Of a stretch of 64,000 bases of DNA, positions 26,356-47,406 are shown piece after piece. Each line of letters starts with the position of its first letter. The stretch's first letter is position 1. The stretch spans positions 1,031,289 to 1,095,288 of the forward strand of contig OY282446.1 in the NCBI GenBank assembly GCA_958295975.1. Direction: 5' to 3'. A model generated the notes under the pieces. That model was not told where the DNA came from. It saw only the letters and a list, made by a program, of their open reading frames with translations, and searched no databases. The position numbers and the translations under genes were made by a program. This DNA is from Tepidiformaceae bacterium (GTDB taxonomy: Bacteria; Chloroflexota; Dehalococcoidia; Tepidiformales; Tepidiformaceae).

Positions 26356-26808
26356 TCAGTCGCGTTTGGGCACGGGACGCCAGCCCACGCCCTCCGCCAG
26401 GATGGCCGTCACCAGCTGGTTGAGCGAGGTCTCCTGCGCCGCCGCCTCGCGCGCCAGCCGCTCGTGCAGCCCCGCGGGCACGCGCACGCGGAACCTGCCG
26501 TCGTACTCCGGAAAGTGCTCCTTCGGCGGCGGGATCTCCCAGCCCTCCTCGAGCGCGCCCCCGATCCAGAGCTCCATCGCCTCGCGGATCATGGCCGTCG
26601 CCTCCTCGGGCGTGTCGCCATGACTCATGCAGCCCCTGAACTCCTCGACGTAGGCCATCCACACGGGATCGCCTTCGGAGTCGTCGTAGTACATGCACAC
26701 GGTGTAGGGCCGCCTCAGGTACTCCGCGACCTGCGCCGCGATTTCGGGATCGTCGAGCGGATCGTGCGGCTGCGTCGTCGCGGGCACCGCCTGTTCAGCC
26801 GTCGTCAT
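26356..26808 (-). CDS. hicB: HicB antitoxin, copy 1
   Basis: 150 aa. N-terminal HicB fold: YTVCMYYDDSEGDPVWMAYVEEFRG, DTPEEATAMIREAMELWI. C-terminal ribbon-helix-helix (about 108-140): FRVRVPAGLHERLAREAAAQ, TSLNQLVTAIL, for operator binding. It neutralises the HicA toxin encoded immediately upstream on the same strand (14-bp overlap). It is a close duplicate of 27068-27523. The region before residue 85 has diverged most. Confidence 0.93.
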   Translation of the reverse strand: MTTAEQAVPATTQPHDPLDDPEIAAQVAEYLRRPYTVCMYYDDSEGDPVWMAYVEEFRGCMSHGDTPEEATAMIREAMELWIGGALEEGWEIPPPKEHFPEYDGRFRVRVPAGLHERLAREAAAQETSLNQLVTAILAEGVGWRPVPKRD

Positions 26809-27043
26809 TACGCATCACCTCGTCGATCGCCTTGAGCGCGTCCCGAACGTACACCTGTTTGACCGGCCTGCGGTACGGAACGACCACCGCGTCCTCGCGG
26901 CGCGGATGACGGTAGCGCCAGTGGCTCCCGCGCACGTGGACCAGCGTGAAGCCCGCCGATTCCAGCGCCGTCCGCAACGCCTCCGGCGAAACGTCCGTCT
27001 GCGAGCGGCGGAGCCGTTCGATGCGCCGCTCCCGTCTCACCAC
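26795..27043 (-). CDS. hicA: HicA toxin, copy 1
   Basis: mRNA interferase with a double-stranded RNA-binding-like fold, 82 aa. The catalytic His lies in VRGSHWRYRHPR (residues about 39-50), and VVVPYRRPVKQVYVRDALKAID closes the fold. Two adjacent in-frame GTG codons are possible starts. A TATCAT -10 box (complement of 27048-27053) lies 4 or 7 bp upstream, and the second GTG (27038-27040) fits the usual 6-7 bp spacing better. Forms a toxin-antitoxin operon with hicB copy 1. Confidence 0.92.
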   Translation of the reverse strand: MVRRERRIERLRRSQTDVSPEALRTALESAGFTLVHVRGSHWRYRHPRREDAVVVPYRRPVKQVYVRDALKAIDEVMRNDDG

Positions 27044-27067
27044 CGCGATGATACCGCGGGCGGCGGG

Positions 27068-27523
27068 TCAGTCGCGGTCGCCCGCCGGACGCCAGCCCAC
27101 GCCCTCCGCCAGGATGGCCGTCACCAGCTGGTTGAGCGAGGTCTCCTGCGCCTCCGCCTCGCGCGCCAGCCGCTCGTGCAGCCCCGCGGGCACACGCACG
27201 CGGAACCTGCCGTCGTACTCCGGAAAGTGCTCCTTCGGCGGCGGGATCGGGTCGCCGTGCTCGACGGCGCTCCCGATCCAGAGCTCCATCGCCTCGCGGA
27301 TCATGGCCGTCGCCTCTTCGGGCGTGTCCCCCTGACTGACGCAGCCACGCAGCTCCTCCACCCACACCACCCAGGCGGGCGGTCCGCCGGGCGAGTCATC
27401 GCGCACCATCGTGATGGTGTAGGGCTTCTCCAGGTATTCCGCGACCTTCGCCGCGATTTCGGGATCGTCGAGCGGATCGTGCGGCTGCGCCGTTGCGGGC
27501 GCCGCCTGTTCAACCGTGGTCAT
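27068..27523 (-). CDS. hicB: HicB antitoxin, copy 2
   Basis: 151 aa, the paralogue of 26356-26808. The RHH half is almost identical (FRVRVPAGLHERLAREAEAQ, TSLNQLVTAILAEGVGWRP). The N-terminal half differs (YTITMVRDDSPGGPPAWVVWVEELRG), as expected if each antitoxin recognises its own toxin. It overlaps the hicA copy 2 stop by 14 bp, as in copy 1. Only 24 bp separate its stop from the copy 1 hicA start. Confidence 0.93.
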   Translation of the reverse strand: MTTVEQAAPATAQPHDPLDDPEIAAKVAEYLEKPYTITMVRDDSPGGPPAWVVWVEELRGCVSQGDTPEEATAMIREAMELWIGSAVEHGDPIPPPKEHFPEYDGRFRVRVPAGLHERLAREAEAQETSLNQLVTAILAEGVGWRPAGDRD

Positions 27524-27758
27524 GGCGCATCACCTCGTCGATCGCCTTCAGCGCATTCCGAACGTACACCGGCTTGACCGGCCTGCGGTAGGGAACGACA
27601 ACCTTCTCGACCAGAGCGGGATGCCAGTACTGCCAATGACTCCCCGTGGTGCGCTCCAGCTCGAAGCCGAACCACTCCAGCGCCGTCCGCAGCGCCTCCG
27701 GCGAGACGTCCGTCTGCGAGCGGCGGAGCCGTTCGATGCGCCGCTCCCGTCTCACCAC
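27510..27758 (-). CDS. hicA: HicA toxin, copy 2
   Basis: 82 aa. The first 27 residues are identical to copy 1 (VRRERRIERLRRSQTDVSPE). The active-site region differs (LERTTGSHWQYWHPALVEK), with the catalytic His in GSHW. Start GTG inferred by alignment with copy 1; the same TATCAT box is at the complement of 27763-27768. The gene continues open far upstream, but that is GC-rich frame shadow. Confidence 0.9.
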   Translation of the reverse strand: MVRRERRIERLRRSQTDVSPEALRTALEWFGFELERTTGSHWQYWHPALVEKVVVPYRRPVKPVYVRNALKAIDEVMRHDHG

Positions 27759-38701: not shown

Positions 38702-39982
38702 CTAGCGGTCGGGGCCCTCCAGGTAGTCGTCGAGCACCTTGTGCATGTGGCGGATGCGCCGCTCGCGGTAGTTGATGAGCAGGCCCTTGAACGAGCGCGA
38801 GTTCATGCCCTTCTGCACGCGCGGCAGGTTGTAGGAGTCCTGATCCAGCCCCAAGCCCAGCGAGATTTCGCCGTGCTTGTGCTGCGTGTGCACGGGCCGC
38901 GGCGGCGGCTCCGACCCCTCCGGGATGCGGACCAGGTTCTGCAGGTCGTAGTACATCCGGTTCGGGTCCGTGGCGTGCGGGCGCTGGCGGAAGAGCATCA
39001 CGCCCGAGTGGTGCGTGTTGAGCGTGATGTTGGGGAAGAGGTAGTAGTGGTAGTCGTCCGTCAGCTGGTCGTCGTTGAGGGACGAGAGGTCGATGCCCTG
39101 GGCGGCGGCGTGACCCTTCACCGCCGCCTGGATGGCGGGGCGCACCGCGGCGGGGCCGCCGTCGAACGTCTCCGGGTCGATGCCCGCCTCGCGCAGCATC
39201 TCCTTGAGCGTGCGCGTCAGCTCGCCCTGGTTCTGGTAGCGCGGGCTCAGCAGGGCGAAGGGCACGAGGTAGCGGTTGTGCCGCTCGTACAGGTCGATCT
39301 GCACGTGGATGTCGTCGATCGATTCGAGGATCTGCGGGTGGATGCCCTGCACGTGGTAGACCTCGTTGAAGGCGTCCACCGACGTCTTCCAGTTGCAGTC
39401 CCACTCGATGGTGCGGTCCTGCACGAGGTACTGGTCCTCGAAGCGGTAGGGGTCGAGGTGGCCGGGAATCTCGCCGAGGAAGTCGCGCAGGGGCTCGGCG
39501 TCCGGGTTCATGTTGAACCACACCCAGCCGCCCCACGTGTCGCAGGGCACCTCCACCAGCGCCGTCTCCTGCGGCACGCCCTGCGTGAAGGTGTCCTCGT
39601 CCGGCACGAACTTCTTGGAGCCGTCGAGGTTGAACTCGAAGAAGTGGTAGGCGCACTGGAACGATTCCGCATGGCCCATGCCCGCGTTCCTGATCTGGTT
39701 CCCGCGGTGCGGGCAGACGTTGTAGAAGGCCCGCACCGTGTCCGGCGCCTCGCGCACGATGAGGAACGACTCCGGCCCCAGCTCGGTGGTGAAGTAGTCG
39801 CCCACGTTGGGGATGTCGGACACGCGCCCGGCGATGTTCCAGACCTTCGTCCACATGCGCTCCCACTCGAGCGCCATGAACTCCTCGGAGGTGTAGCGCT
39901 CCTTGGGGATGAGGTCGGTGCCCAGCGCGGGCTCGGGGGCCTTCTCCGTGGGCGTCTGGCGGATGGCGGACTCGATGACCAT
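38702..39982 (-). CDS. Rieske aromatic ring-hydroxylating-type oxygenase, alpha subunit
   Basis: 426 aa. Rieske [2Fe-2S] ligands C90, H92 (CPH) and C110, H113 (CAYH). Mononuclear iron site E206, H209, H214 (NEVYHVQGIH), with the third acidic ligand expected near 340-360. A long C-terminal domain follows. Oxidises an aromatic, steroid-like or other ring substrate using a separate reductase/ferredoxin, not encoded here. It lies between two SDR genes on the same strand, suggesting a small catabolic cluster. ATG at 39980-39982; GAGGAGCG 6 nt upstream. Confidence 0.93.
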   Translation of the reverse strand: MVIESAIRQTPTEKAPEPALGTDLIPKERYTSEEFMALEWERMWTKVWNIAGRVSDIPNVGDYFTTELGPESFLIVREAPDTVRAFYNVCPHRGNQIRNAGMGHAESFQCAYHFFEFNLDGSKKFVPDEDTFTQGVPQETALVEVPCDTWGGWVWFNMNPDAEPLRDFLGEIPGHLDPYRFEDQYLVQDRTIEWDCNWKTSVDAFNEVYHVQGIHPQILESIDDIHVQIDLYERHNRYLVPFALLSPRYQNQGELTRTLKEMLREAGIDPETFDGGPAAVRPAIQAAVKGHAAAQGIDLSSLNDDQLTDDYHYYLFPNITLNTHHSGVMLFRQRPHATDPNRMYYDLQNLVRIPEGSEPPPRPVHTQHKHGEISLGLGLDQDSYNLPRVQKGMNSRSFKGLLINYRERRIRHMHKVLDDYLEGPDR

Positions 39983-41721: not shown

Positions 41722-42606
41722 CTACTCCGTGGTGCGGATGGCGCGGATGGCGATGGTGAGCATGAGCGCGCCGAAGGCCAGCACCACCCCTATCTCCTCC
41801 CACGTGCTCAGCGTATAGCCGAACCACTCCACATGCGTGATCTGGAAGGGCGCGTCCGCCGGCACCGCCGCCAGCTGCTCGGAAAGGGCGATCTCGCGGA
41901 TGGGCGCGACCGCGTAGGTGACGGGGTTGATCTTCACCAGCACGTCCATCCAGGCGGGCACGTTGTTGATGGGGAAGAAGATGCCGGAGAGGAACATGGC
42001 CGGGAAGATGGCCACCTGCGACAGCATCTGGAAGCTCTCCACGGAGCGCAGGCGGCTGCCCAGGGCCACGCCCAGGCCGGTGAGCATGAAGGACACGAGC
42101 GCGATCAGGGGCAGCAGCTTGGCCACCACCTCGAGCGTGATGTCGATGCCCAGCAGGGGCGCGATGGCGAACATGACGGCGCCGTTCACGAGCGCCACCG
42201 TGGCCCCGCCGCTGATCTTGCCGATGCAGATGGCGGTGCGGCTCACGGGGGCGACGAGGATTTCGCGCAGGAACCCGAACTGCCGGTCGGTGACGATGGA
42301 GACGCCGGAGAAGACGGAGTTCATGAGCACGATCATGGCCACCATGCCCGGGAAGATGAACTGGCGGTAGCCGATGTCGCCGGGCAGCTGGGCGATGCTG
42401 TTGCCCAGCCCCTCGCCGAACATGACGAGCATGATCACGGGCATGGTGAAGGCGGAGATCATGCGCGCGCGGTCGCGGAAGTAGATGAGCACCTCGCGCA
42501 TCCAGATGACGCGCACGACCTGCAGGAAGCCCGCGCGCCCGGTGGCCCGCCGCGGCGCGCCCGCCGCCACGCGCGCATCCGCGCCCGCTTCCGCCGAAAC
42601 CGTCAT
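41722..42606 (-). CDS. ABC-2 type transporter permease
   Basis: 294 aa with six hydrophobic segments of the DrrB/NodJ type. A cytoplasmic start (VIWMREVLIYFRDRARMISAF) and the conserved FPAMFLSGIFFPINNVPAWM block near 215-234 are present. Works with the ATPase encoded just upstream on the same strand (ATGA overlap). The cargo is unknown; lipid or drug export is typical. Confidence 0.92.
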   Translation of the reverse strand: MTVSAEAGADARVAAGAPRRATGRAGFLQVVRVIWMREVLIYFRDRARMISAFTMPVIMLVMFGEGLGNSIAQLPGDIGYRQFIFPGMVAMIVLMNSVFSGVSIVTDRQFGFLREILVAPVSRTAICIGKISGGATVALVNGAVMFAIAPLLGIDITLEVVAKLLPLIALVSFMLTGLGVALGSRLRSVESFQMLSQVAIFPAMFLSGIFFPINNVPAWMDVLVKINPVTYAVAPIREIALSEQLAAVPADAPFQITHVEWFGYTLSTWEEIGVVLAFGALMLTIAIRAIRTTE

Positions 42607-43586
42607 CGCATCCTCCGGAAGCCCTGGCGCTGCATGGAGCGCATCTTGTCCTCCTCGCTGAAGGCCTGCTCGCGGATCTGGTGGCCCGTGAGGGAGACGA
42701 ACACGTCCTCCAGCGTGGGCGCGCGGATGCCCACGGAGCGCACCTCGCCGTCGAGGCGGGCGAGCAGCACGGGCACGAAGTCGCCGCCGTGCTCCACGTT
42801 GAATTCGACGGCCTCGTTTTCGAGGCGCGGCTCGATCTCGAAGGATTCGCGCACCTCGCGCGCGAGGGCGGCGTTGTCGGGGCCGACGATGGAGACCACG
42901 TCGCCGCCCAGCCGCGCCTTCAGGCGCGCGGGCGTGTCGAGCGCGATGATGCGCCCGTGGTCCATGACGGCCACGCGGTCGCAGGCCTCGGCCTCGTCCA
43001 TGTAGTGCGTGGTGAGGAAGATGGTGACGCCCTCCGTGTCGCGCATGGAGCGGGCGTAGGCCCAGAGGCTGCGGCGCGTCTGCGGGTCCAGCCCCACGGT
43101 GGGCTCGTCGAGGAAGAGCACGGAGGGCCAGTGCATGAGGCCGCGCGCCACTTCCAGCCGCCGCCGCATGCCGCCGGAGAAGGTGATGACGGCGTCGCCC
43201 GCGCGGTCGGCCAGGCCCACGCGCTCCAGCAGCTGGTCCGCGCGGGGGCGGATGTCGGCGCGGGCCATGCCGAACAGCTCGCCGTGGAAGACGAGGTTCT
43301 CGCGCGCCGTGAGGCGCTCGTCCACGGTCGAATCCTGGAAGACGATGCCGATCTCGCGGCGCACCCCGGCGGGGTCGGACACGATGTCGCAGCCGCCGAT
43401 GGCGGCGCTGCCAGCGGTGGGGCGCAGCAGCGTGCAGAGCATGGAGATAGTGGTCGTCTTGCCCGCGCCGTTGGGGCCGAGGAAGCCGAAAATCTCGGCC
43501 TCGCCCACGTCGAAGGAGACGCCGTCCACGGCGGTGATCTCGCCGAAGCGGCGCGCCAGCCCGGAAACGCGAACGGCTGGGGGCAT
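42603..43586 (-). CDS. ABC transporter ATP-binding protein (DrrA-like)
   Basis: 327 aa. Walker A GPNGAGKTTT near 40-49, Q-loop FQDSTVDE, signature FSGGMRRRLEVARGL, Walker B VLFLDEPTVGLDPQ, H-loop TTHYMDEAE. A 100-residue C-terminal DrrA-type domain follows (TLEDVFVSLTGH). ATG chosen at 43584-43586, as upstream codons do not match. Forms an exporter with the permease at 41722. Confidence 0.94.
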   Translation of the reverse strand: MPPAVRVSGLARRFGEITAVDGVSFDVGEAEIFGFLGPNGAGKTTTISMLCTLLRPTAGSAAIGGCDIVSDPAGVRREIGIVFQDSTVDERLTARENLVFHGELFGMARADIRPRADQLLERVGLADRAGDAVITFSGGMRRRLEVARGLMHWPSVLFLDEPTVGLDPQTRRSLWAYARSMRDTEGVTIFLTTHYMDEAEACDRVAVMDHGRIIALDTPARLKARLGGDVVSIVGPDNAALAREVRESFEIEPRLENEAVEFNVEHGGDFVPVLLARLDGEVRSVGIRAPTLEDVFVSLTGHQIREQAFSEEDKMRSMQRQGFRRMR

Positions 43587-43633: not shown

Positions 43634-44782
43634 TCACGGCTCGTACAGGAGCGTGTCGGGGAAATAGTCCGACCAGGCGAACCAGAAGACGGCGAAGGCG
43701 GGCAGTGGCTCCAGCCGCCGCCCCGCCAGCTCGCCCTCCAGCGCCTCGCCCGTGAGCGCCGCCCAGATGGTGCCCGTCTCGCGGTCGCGCAGCCGCGCCG
43801 CGCCGTCCGCGGCGGGGTCGGCGGCCTCGAAGGTGAGCGCGCGGCCCTCGACGCTCGGGGCGAAGGCCGCCGCCGCGCGCGCCTCGCCGTCCCAGGCGAT
43901 GAGGACGGAGCGCCCGCCCACGCGGTCGTTGAGCGCGGGCGCGTCCGCGAGCCGGTGGTGGGCGTAGGCCTTGCGCCCCTCGGGCAACACCAGCCCCAGC
44001 ACCAGCGTCTTGGGGAAGAGGCGTTCGTCGCGGTTGCGCTCGCCGATCACGCCCGCGTCGGGCCGCAGGTAGTAGTTCGAGTAGGCGTCGATGACGACGC
44101 CGCCCTGGTCGAGCGCGGTGGTGTCGGGATGGAGCGCGCGCCAGCTCTTCCAGCGCATGAGCGCGGCGGGCAGCGGCGTCAGCTCGGTCCCCACCAGCGG
44201 GCCTTCCACGGCGCGCCCCAGGAACTGGCTCCAGAGCGTCTCCGTCTGGCGGTCGAACATGACGAGCGCGTTCATGATGAGCTTGCCGGAGACGCCGAAG
44301 TCGAGACGCCGCTCTCCGATGTCGCGGGCATACACGATGCCCGTGAAGCAGAGCGGTCACCAGGTGACGGCGATGGCGCGCCCGCCGAGCGTGTCGTTCA
44401 CGATCTCGTGGCCGCTGAGGAAGGCCGCCCCGTAGGCGCGGTGTTCGCCGCCGACGGAGACGCCGATGACGAGATCGTTCGCGCGCAGCTGTTCGTCCGC
44501 GACGGCGGCGGAGACGATGGCGGGGTCGTCGATGGCGGGAATGGCGTCCGGCGGCAGCAGCGTGACGATCTCGAACTCCGCCTCCGCCCCGGGCGACGCC
44601 GTGGCGGTGGCGGTGGGCGATGCCGTGGCCGTGGGCGTGGCCGAAGGCGTGGCCACAGTGGCAGTCGCCGTGACCGTGGCGGAGGGCGTGGCCGTGGGCG
44701 TGGCGACCGGCGCGTCCGTTCCCCCGCAGGCGACCGCGATCAGCGCCAGCGCGGCCAGCGCCGCCGCCAGCGCGCGGACCAC
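43634..44782 (-). CDS. DUF3179 lipoprotein, predicted selenoprotein (in-frame UGA = Sec142)
   Basis: One frame of 382 codons interrupted only by TGA at 44357-44359. N-terminal lipoprotein signal (LALIAVACGG, lipid-modified Cys about 20), Thr/Ala/Pro linker, then the DUF3179 domain. HEIVNDTLGGRAIAVTW precedes the UGA and PLCFTGIVYARDIGERRLDF follows it. The family motif there is CPLC, so UGA replaces the first Cys (UxxC). Directly after the UGA lies a hairpin that fits bacterial SECIS rules. GTG start 2 bp after the pheA stop. Alternatives: a nonsense mutation or sequencing error (TGC to TGA). Function of DUF3179 is unknown; a redox or metal-binding role is plausible. Confidence 0.82.
44309..44356 (-). 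promoter_or_regulatory. Putative bacterial SECIS element
   Basis: It starts immediately after the UGA. Outer stem CCGCUCU/AGAGCGG (7 bp, perfect), inner stem CGGGCAU/AUGCCCG (7 bp, perfect), apical loop CGUGU. The UGA-to-loop distance is 20 nt, the upper stem is longer than 4 bp, and G is among the first two loop nucleotides. These are the published bSECIS criteria. Lies entirely within the coding sequence. Confidence 0.75.
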
Positions 44783-44784
44783 GC

Positions 44785-45630
44785 TCAGCCCCCCCCGGCG
44801 CGGGGGTAGCTGCCGAACACCTTGAGGTGCGCGGTCATGGCCTCCAGCGCGGCCAGGGCCTCGGCGCAGCGCGGGTCGCGCGCGTGCCCCTCGAAGTCGA
44901 TGAGGAAGACGTACTCGCCCATGCTGGCGCGCGTGGGGCGGCTCTCCATCTTGGTGCAGTTGATGCCGCGGCTGGCGAATTCGGCCAGCGCCGCCGCCAG
45001 CAGCCCGGCGCGGTCGTCGGCGAAGCGGAAGGCGATGGAGGTGCGGTCGCGGCCCGTGGGCGCGGGGGGGCGCGCGCCCACCACCACGAAGCGGGTGGCG
45101 TTGTCGCGCCGGTCCTGGATGCCCTCGGCCAGCACGCGCGCGCCGCAGCGCCCGGCGGCGCGCGCGGTGGCGATGGCCGCCGCCCCCTCGTGCGCGCGCT
45201 CCATGGCCAGCTGCGCCGCGTGGGCCGTGGAGAGGGCCGCCTCCAGCCGCGCCCGCGGGTGGCGTTCGCGCAGGAAGGCGCGGCACTGCCCCAGCGCCTG
45301 GGTGTGCGAGTAGATCGTCTCGATGGCCCCGGCCTCCACGCCCGGCGCGGCCACCAGGTGGTGCGTCACGGGCACGATCAGCTCCGCCTGGATGGGCAGG
45401 GAGGTTTCGTGGATGAGGATGTCGAGCGTCTCCGCCACGGAGCCGTTGAGCGAGTTCTCGATGGCGAGCACGCCCGCGGCGGCCTCGCCCGCCTCCACGG
45501 CGCGGGCCACCTCGGCGTGGGAGGGGAGGGGGAGCAGGGCGGCGTCGGGCGCGTGGCGGCGGGCCGCCTCCTCGCCGAAGGTGCCGGGCGGCCCCAGGTA
45601 GGCCAGCGGGCCCTCAGGTGTCGAAGCCAT
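44785..45630 (-). CDS. pheA: Prephenate dehydratase
   Basis: Converts prephenate to phenylpyruvate. 281 aa, without chorismate mutase. YLGPPGTFGEEAA (residues 10-22), catalytic NATRFVVVG (TRF) near 175, and a regulatory ACT domain with RTSIAFRF and the Phe-binding ESRPTRASMGEYVFLID near 227-243. It overlaps the trkA gene by 17 bp on the same strand, so it is part of a usp-trkA-trkA-pheA-DUF3179 transcript. Confidence 0.95.
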   Translation of the reverse strand: MASTPEGPLAYLGPPGTFGEEAARRHAPDAALLPLPSHAEVARAVEAGEAAAGVLAIENSLNGSVAETLDILIHETSLPIQAELIVPVTHHLVAAPGVEAGAIETIYSHTQALGQCRAFLRERHPRARLEAALSTAHAAQLAMERAHEGAAAIATARAAGRCGARVLAEGIQDRRDNATRFVVVGARPPAPTGRDRTSIAFRFADDRAGLLAAALAEFASRGINCTKMESRPTRASMGEYVFLIDFEGHARDPRCAEALAALEAMTAHLKVFGSYPRAGGG

Positions 45631-46288
45631 GGGCGCCCCCGATCAGCGCTTCGCCGAGCATGGCGCGGCTCTCCGCGCGCGTCACCACCACCAGCGCATC
45701 CCCCACCGTGAGCGTCGTGTCCGGGGCGGGGATGCGGGGCACGCCGCCGGAATCGACGATCAGGGCGACCAGCGATTCGGGCGGCAGCAGCAGCTCGCGC
45801 GGCGTGCGCCCCACCGCCGGCGACGTCTCCGGCAGGCGCACTTCCACCAGCTCCAGCCCCTCGTGCAGATGCATCACGGGCACCACCGCCACGACCGGCA
45901 GCTCCTGCTCGATCTGGGCGAGGATGGCGTCCGTGGCGGAGACCGTGGTCTCGATGCCGCGCTTCCCGAAGAGGAGGGCGTTGCGCGGGTCGTTCACGCG
46001 CGCCAGCACGCGCGCCACGCCGTGGTGACGCGCGATTTCGCAGACCACGAGGTTGTCCTCGTCGTCGCCCGTGACGGCGGCCACGAGGTCCGCGCGGCGC
46101 ACGCCCGCCCCCTCCAGCACGGACGCCTCGCAGGCGTCGCCGCGCAGGGCCGCGCCCTCCAGCCGCTCGCCCAGCTCGGCCGCGCGCTCGCCGTCGCGCT
46201 CGATCACGAGCAGCTCGTTGTCGCCGCCCTGCAGCTCCCGCGCGAGGGAGTAGCCGACCTTGCCGCCGCCCGCGATGATGATGTACAC
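45614..46288 (-). CDS. trkA: TrkA/KtrA-type RCK regulator of K+ transport
   Basis: 224 aa: RCK_N Rossmann domain (MYIIIAGGGKVGYSLARELQ, GDACEASVLEGAGV, TGDDEDNLV) plus RCK_C (about 140-215, VEVRLPETSPAVGRTPRELLL and DTTLTVGDALVVVT). Cytoplasmic gating ring subunit that binds NAD(H) or nucleotides. No TrkH/KtrB channel gene is visible here. Confidence 0.93.
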   Translation of the reverse strand: MYIIIAGGGKVGYSLARELQGGDNELLVIERDGERAAELGERLEGAALRGDACEASVLEGAGVRRADLVAAVTGDDEDNLVVCEIARHHGVARVLARVNDPRNALLFGKRGIETTVSATDAILAQIEQELPVVAVVPVMHLHEGLELVEVRLPETSPAVGRTPRELLLPPESLVALIVDSGGVPRIPAPDTTLTVGDALVVVTRAESRAMLGEALIGGAHGFDT

Positions 46289-46291
46289 GGC

Positions 46292-46702
46292 TCAGGCCGG
46301 GGCCTCGCCCGCGAGCATGGCGATCATGGCGTCCGCGCCCGCGCTCGTGGGGCTGTAGGTGTCGATGCCGAGGCGCCCGAAGATCTCGCCCCGCTGCGGA
46401 TCCTTCACGCGGCAGATGACGCGCGCCACGCCGTAGACCTCGCGCGCCAGCTGGCTGGCGAAGAAGTTGCGGTTGTCCCCCTGCGTGACGGCGATGAAGG
46501 CGTCCGCCTCGCGCACGCCCGCGCGCTCCAGCGCCTCCATGTCCATGCCGTTGCCAGCCGCCAGGCGTCCGCCGAAGCCGCCGTCGAGCCGCCCGAAGCG
46601 GGAGGCGTCGCGGTCGATCACGGTCACGCGGTGGCCCTCGCGGTCGAGCCGTTCGGCGATGGCCGCGCCCGTGCGCCCGCAGCCCATGACGAGCACGTTC
46701 AC
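46292..46702 (-). CDS. TrkA N-terminal (RCK_N) domain protein
   Basis: 136 aa with only the Rossmann RCK_N domain: NVLVMGCGRTGAAIAERLDR, VIDRD, GNGMDMEALERAGV, TQGDNRNFFASQLA. No RCK_C. GTG start overlapping the usp stop by 4 bp. Probably pairs with the full-length RCK protein encoded 3 bp downstream, as in two-subunit TrkA systems. Confidence 0.9.
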   Translation of the reverse strand: MNVLVMGCGRTGAAIAERLDREGHRVTVIDRDASRFGRLDGGFGGRLAAGNGMDMEALERAGVREADAFIAVTQGDNRNFFASQLAREVYGVARVICRVKDPQRGEIFGRLGIDTYSPTSAGADAMIAMLAGEAPA

Positions 46703-47169
46703 GGGCGCGCCGCCGGTTCCGCGGCGGGGGCGGCGCGCTCCAGCGGCGCGCGCGCGATCCACACGGCGCAGGGCGCGTGTCCGAGCACGTGCTCCGCCGT
46801 GCGGCCCACGGCGAAGCGGCCCGGCAGGAGCGATGCGGCCACGCCCAGCACGATCGCGTCGGCCTCGCGCGCGGCCGCCGCCTCCACGATGGCGGGGCCC
46901 GCGGCGCGCGCCTGCAGCATCTCGTCCTCGATGGTCACGCCGCCGCCGGCGGCCTCGGCGCGGGCGCGCGCGCGGCGCAGCAGCTCCTCGCCGCGGCGGC
47001 CCTCCAGCTCCATGTCCGCCGTCACGGGCAGGCGGCGATCGACCTCGATCACGTACAGGAGCGTGAGCGCGCCCCCGGCCTGGCGCGCGAGCGCCGCGCC
47101 GAGCGCGGCGGCGTCGAGGCTGGCGTCGCCGGGCGCCACCGGCGCGAGGATGGAGCGGAAGCCCGCCAT
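46699..47169 (-). CDS. Universal stress protein (UspA family)
   Basis: 156 aa. RSILAPVAPGDASLDAAALGAALA start and a C-terminal DAIVLGVAASLLPGRFAVGRTAEHVLGHAPCAVWIAR. The nucleotide-binding G-x2-G-x9-G-S/T motif is only partly kept (Ala for the second Gly, RT at the end), so ATP binding is uncertain. The longer open frame is not needed; the ATG at 47167-47169 matches family starts. First gene of the trkA-pheA operon. Confidence 0.88.
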   Translation of the reverse strand: MAGFRSILAPVAPGDASLDAAALGAALARQAGGALTLLYVIEVDRRLPVTADMELEGRRGEELLRRARARAEAAGGGVTIEDEMLQARAAGPAIVEAAAAREADAIVLGVAASLLPGRFAVGRTAEHVLGHAPCAVWIARAPLERAAPAAEPAARP

Positions 47170-47241
47170 GCGCTGCGCCCCCTCTTCTGGCGCGGGGAGA
47201 ATACCGCCGCGCGGGATCGCGCACAACGCGCCCGCGCACGC

Positions 47242-47406
47242 TCAGTCGCGCCGCGCGAACCAGAGCCGCACGAGGCCGTTGCAGGCCAGCGCCATGCCCA
47301 GCCACGCGCCCGCGCCCCAGCCCGCGCCCTGCAGCAGCAGGAAAAGGACGAGGGCCGCCCCCAGCGCCAGCGAGGCGGCGGCGAGCAGACGGTTGACGGC
47401 GCGCAC
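47242..47406 (-). CDS. Small two-helix membrane protein
   Basis: 54 aa: a short basic start, two hydrophobic helices (AAASLALGAALVLFLLLQGAG and GAWLGMALACNGLVRLWF) and a basic end (ARRD). GTG start with TAGGCT (complement of 47414-47419) 7 bp upstream, the window's leaderless pattern. No family recognised. Upstream of usp on the same strand. Confidence 0.55.
   Translation of the reverse strand: MRAVNRLLAAASLALGAALVLFLLLQGAGWGAGAWLGMALACNGLVRLWFARRD

Follow-up and report, generated by a model that had tools for sequence, protein, structure and literature searches.

The UGA at codon 142 of a DUF3179 gene from a Tepidiformaceae bacterium is very probably decoded as selenocysteine (Sec), which would make the gene product a selenoprotein. 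This assignment was strongly supported by the Sec machinery of the genome, the conservation of the UGA, the covariation of a hairpin behind it, and the specificity of this hairpin to Sec members. In the proposed mechanism, SelB and tRNA-Sec(UCA) would decode UGA codon 142, directed by the covarying hairpin 14–32 nt past the UGA.

Gene and Protein Product

The window, the whole 64,000-nt stretch of DNA analysed, carried the DUF3179 gene on the minus strand at 44782..43634; the strand had been left unstated in the initial annotation. The single frame described there across the UGA (44359-44357) was borne out. With this TGA read as a residue, the frame gave one DUF3179 protein of 382 residues (382 codons plus stop), running from a proposed GTG start at 44782 to a terminal TGA at 43636-43634. 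In the homologue alignment, the UGA (44357..44359, minus strand) fell exactly at the first Cys of the DUF3179 CPLC motif, so Sec142 would be the first position of a UPLC motif. The Pfam match to PF11376 (DUF3179) spanned the UGA, with an E value of 1.6e-84 over residues 79-377 and 284 bits against a cut-off of 27, and covered positions 2-292 of the 292-position profile. The product consisted of a hydrophobic N-terminus, a PTAT-rich linker, and then the segment ...AIAVTW-U-PLCFTGIVYAR....

A scan of the whole window found only three in-frame TGAs with coding-like composition on both sides. The other two were ordinary gene junctions: TrkA-TrkA at 46294 and HicB-HicA at 27070. The two TrkA-type genes lay head to tail in one frame (45614-47305, minus strand), and the HicB-like antitoxin and HicA-like toxin genes likewise shared a frame (26798-27529, minus strand).

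The N-terminus was signal-peptide-like, with a possible lipobox Cys (LIAVAC-GG; 44716..44782, minus strand) and a similar ACGG in orthologues. Compared with the pattern [LVI][ASTVI][GAS]C, the sequence AVAC followed a hydrophobic stretch and had Ala at position -3, which is weak. Of the exported lipoprotein proposed earlier, the signal-like N-terminus and the Cys at LIAVAC stood, with a weak lipobox. It is plausible from these features that the protein is exported, probably as a lipoprotein.

The upstream gene encoded prephenate dehydratase (pheA, with PDT and ACT domains; 44785..45630, minus strand) and ended 2 nt before the proposed GTG. A DrrA-like ABC ATPase and an ABC-2 permease, also assigned by Pfam, lay downstream (41722..43586, minus strand). 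The order TrkA, pheA, DUF3179, ABC ATPase, ABC permease was conserved at all loci of the genus long enough to show it. At the other loci examined, the DUF3179 neighbours had no common functional context. The same genome had two further DUF3179 paralogues, both containing Cys (CPLC and CTLC). A PDB sequence search with the protein found no relative, the sole row being an antibody chain with an E value of 0.09. Rfam at the gathering threshold gave zero matches within the 64-kb window; weak matches near the DUF3179 gene were to unrelated families, far below threshold, and were rejected.

Conservation of the UGA Codon

An orthologue was present in seven of the eight other genomes of the genus, with 66–70% identity and exactly one TGA each at the same codon; the eighth genome (G008) had no DUF3179 match. 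The UGA was also retained in orthologues from further families. The named public records carrying the gene were Dehalococcoidia and Chloroflexi metagenome assemblies. In the alignment of homologues proposed in the initial annotation, 36 distinct sequences had TGA at this column; of the other 35, 34 had a Cys codon. One locus (L079, genome G365) was listed with one TGA, yet its aligned column was TGC.

The decay that had been named as grounds for rejecting the Sec assignment was not seen around the UGA. On either side of the UGA, dN was well below dS; downstream of it, the values for the window gene were 0.22–0.25 and 0.57–0.60, respectively. These ratios indicate that purifying selection persists downstream of the UGA.

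Selenocysteine Machinery

The genome was a single contig of 2.4 Mb. The search for Sec machinery that had been suggested was run, and SelA (512.7 bits), SelB (288 bits, above the cut-off), SelD, and tRNA-Sec (69.6 bits, anticodon UCA) were all present. The SelD gene (L021:1501-2430; G000:C1:1262122-1263051) had its own in-frame UGA at SCGG-U-ASK, and SelD of this genome is probably itself a second selenoprotein. SelA was found in 32 of the 33 genomes with a UGA-containing DUF3179 gene versus 256 of 393 across the class, a co-occurrence inflated by relatedness. The lone UGA-DUF3179 genome without a SelA match (G048) was 69% complete.

SECIS Hairpin

An apical hairpin, CGGGCAU-CGUGU-AUGCCCG (44325..44343, minus strand), was assigned as a bacterial SECIS (bSECIS) element from covariation, comparison of Sec and Cys members, and folding. 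Its 7-bp stem started 13 nt after the UGA, and its 5-nt loop lay 20 nt from the UGA. The bSECIS rules require a stem of 4–16 bp, a loop of 3–9 nt, a UGA distance of 16–37 nt, a G among the first two loop bases, and an MFE of at most -7.5 (PMC13188914). The apical hairpin conformed to the standard model, as had been claimed from the sequence, with G at loop position 2 and an MFE below -7.5. In some UGA relatives the stem was shifted and 6 bp long, closing a loop of 8 nt, and loop sequences across relatives included CGUGU, CGGGU, and others.

Two nested stems had been proposed. Both were in the minimum-energy fold here (-25.8 kcal/mol for 54 nt, z -2.97), and equally stable folds occurred in 2 of 200 shuffles of the 54-nt piece. 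The apical stem was conserved. The outer stem, CCGCUCU/AGAGCGG (44309..44356, minus strand), paired 7/7 in this genome, and the other 35 UGA sequences formed only 1–5 of its 7 pairs; since it was complete only here, it lies outside the conserved element and was not retained as part of the SECIS.

Among 22 distinct UGA sequences from the clade of the window gene, 92% of the cells of the seven-pair helix were paired, and at five of the seven pairs both partners had changed. The covariation score was 0.388 versus 0.112 in shuffles and was reached by 0 of 500 shuffles, a test inflated by sequence relatedness. Sliding the helix partner abolished the signal. At the same seven positions, 5.9 of 7 pairs formed in the 36 UGA rows versus 3.0 of 7 in the 35 other homologues (p 4e-9, uncorrected for relatedness). 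The apical hairpin was specific to Sec members, and Cys homologues were without it.

These results bear on two other explanations of the UGA. Normally, an in-frame stop seen once in a single assembly would point to a pseudogene or a sequencing error, in which case the UGA would be a premature stop followed by a decaying part. However, seven further genomes of the genus, and many families besides, carried the same UGA in separate assemblies, while the downstream half was still under selection and the hairpin covaried. The retention of the UGA by orthologues effectively refuted this explanation, whose probability is negligible. A conserved in-frame UGA by itself leaves the residue unnamed, and a code change or suppressor might insert another amino acid instead of Sec. 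Against this, UGA also served as an ordinary stop, ending both the DUF3179 gene and the neighbouring pheA; homologues carried Cys at the UGA column; the SECIS-like hairpin was confined to UGA members; and the genome had the full Sec machinery. Insertion of another amino acid is thus very improbable, and Sec is the preferred assignment.

Domain Duplication and Fold

Residues about 104–220 and 260–378 were two copies of one beta-rich domain. Comparison of half with half by hhalign gave a probability of 99.9%, an E value of 2e-31, and 31% identity. The DUF3179 protein is an internal duplication with homologous halves.

An AlphaFold2 model from 11 sequences had a confident core, with most of residues 80–382 above 80. 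In VIA-align, all matches listed for the whole model were Rieske proteins (Z 9.1–6.8, mainly to half 2), as were all matches listed for the model of half 1 alone (Z 8.1–6.1), against a background of 7–8. The best Foldseek match had an E value of 0.015. Profile–profile comparison with Rieske by hhalign gave a probability of 1% and no support, and PF00355 (Rieske [2Fe-2S]) was not among the Pfam matches of the protein. Because the Z values were near background and the hhalign probability was 1%, a Rieske-like fold of each half is only a suggestion from the model. Each half would resemble Rieske ferredoxin and the Rieske domain of oxygenases in fold, but the C-x-H...C-x2-H cluster ligands of those domains were in neither half. 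A Sec-ligated Rieske cluster was dropped for this reason, and by eye the UPLC turn appeared to lie off the cluster loops. The window also contained a Rieske ring-hydroxylating oxygenase alpha subunit gene (38702-39982, minus strand), and the genome had at least 16 Rieske matches.

Active Site and Proposed Function

The U142-P-L-C145 site and a nearly invariant H125 were found in the first domain copy only. A UxxC redox or metal site, as put forward in the initial annotation, would be a reasonable reading. Only one sequence had neither Sec nor Cys at the first motif position. H125 was present in 72 of 75 rows, with Arg instead in three Sec members. C145 was usual, but a DUF3179 gene on an IMG/VR contig (viral collection; L103) had CPLT and lacked the second Cys, so that not every member could use a resolving Cys. 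Two loci (L095 and L100, genomes G043 and G101) were divergent paralogues, and L095 had GPLT for CPLC, with loss of the active-site Cys.

We know of no established function for DUF3179. From the Sec or Cys at the first position, H125, the usual C145, and the predicted export, the protein could be an extracytoplasmic selenol/thiol redox catalyst, a reading to which we give even chances. Outside the cytoplasmic membrane, Sec142 would act as the attacking selenolate of selenol/thiol redox chemistry, H125 would help to activate it, and C145, where present, would resolve the intermediate. The protein might instead be a selenoprotein whose UxxC site is metal-binding or structural. Metal binding would fit an exported protein that combines a Sec/Cys pair with a nearly invariant His, and the fold matches were Rieske-like. 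However, repeated swapping of Sec and Cys confined to the first position, the second being Thr in some cases, suits a nucleophile better than a pair of ligands, and the Rieske ligand motif was absent. A metal or structural site is considered rather unlikely, and redox catalysis is the preferred function.

Distribution in Dehalococcoidia

DUF3179 was present in 142 of the 393 genomes of the class, and UGA members occurred across many families. Because UGA loci were selected deliberately, the proportion of them in the retrieved set does not measure how frequent they are. The Sec/Cys column was masked for a tree of 72 proteins, which needed eight label changes, at least seven of them forced by well-supported branches. 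The clade of the window gene (n = 29) contained 27 Sec and 2 Cys members. The host genome of one Cys member (L098, genome G370) still had SelA; that of the other (L092, genome G235) was not among the genomes with a SelA match. Sec-containing DUF3179 is widespread in Dehalococcoidia, on several separate branches, and lineages swap Sec and Cys.

Relation to Known Selenoproteins

The initial annotation knew of no description of DUF3179 as a selenoprotein family, and this did not hold. Two reviews, PMC9312934 and PMC13188914, tabulate DUF3179 among the selenoproteins with the motif UxxC/T, and on a Salinirubellus plasmid record the product is called 'DUF3179 domain-containing (seleno)protein'. The window gene belongs to the same Pfam family (PF11376), with Sec first in UxxC. 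Given these earlier listings and the record, it is a further, well-supported member and not a new kind of selenoprotein. The two reviews, through which the 2007 family is known here, credit it to Zhang and Gladyshev 2007, a study of the Olavius algarvensis delta symbiont, whereas the present members are from several separate branches of Chloroflexota, class Dehalococcoidia. Added here are the Dehalococcoidia-wide occurrence of Sec-DUF3179, at least seven Sec/Cys exchanges, and an internal duplication with Rieske-like fold matches lacking the ligands. Within the texts searched, no paper linked SAR202 to selenoprotein, and none linked Rieske to DUF3179.

The gene offers a clear selenoprotein case, open to testing, in a lineage that has received little study; automatic annotation is likely to truncate or split it. 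The position of Sec suggests which residue of DUF3179 is catalytic, and the many Sec/Cys exchanges within one class are natural pairs for asking what selenium contributes. Sec-DUF3179 may, rather doubtfully, be a tandem Rieske-like fold without an iron-sulfur cluster, with the selenol site at a different position and frequent Sec/Cys exchange in Dehalococcoidia. To our knowledge, a Rieske-like fold is not known for selenol catalysis. The suggestion is a starting hypothesis for structural work and, if true, Sec-DUF3179 would be a selenoenzyme on a fold new to selenol catalysis.
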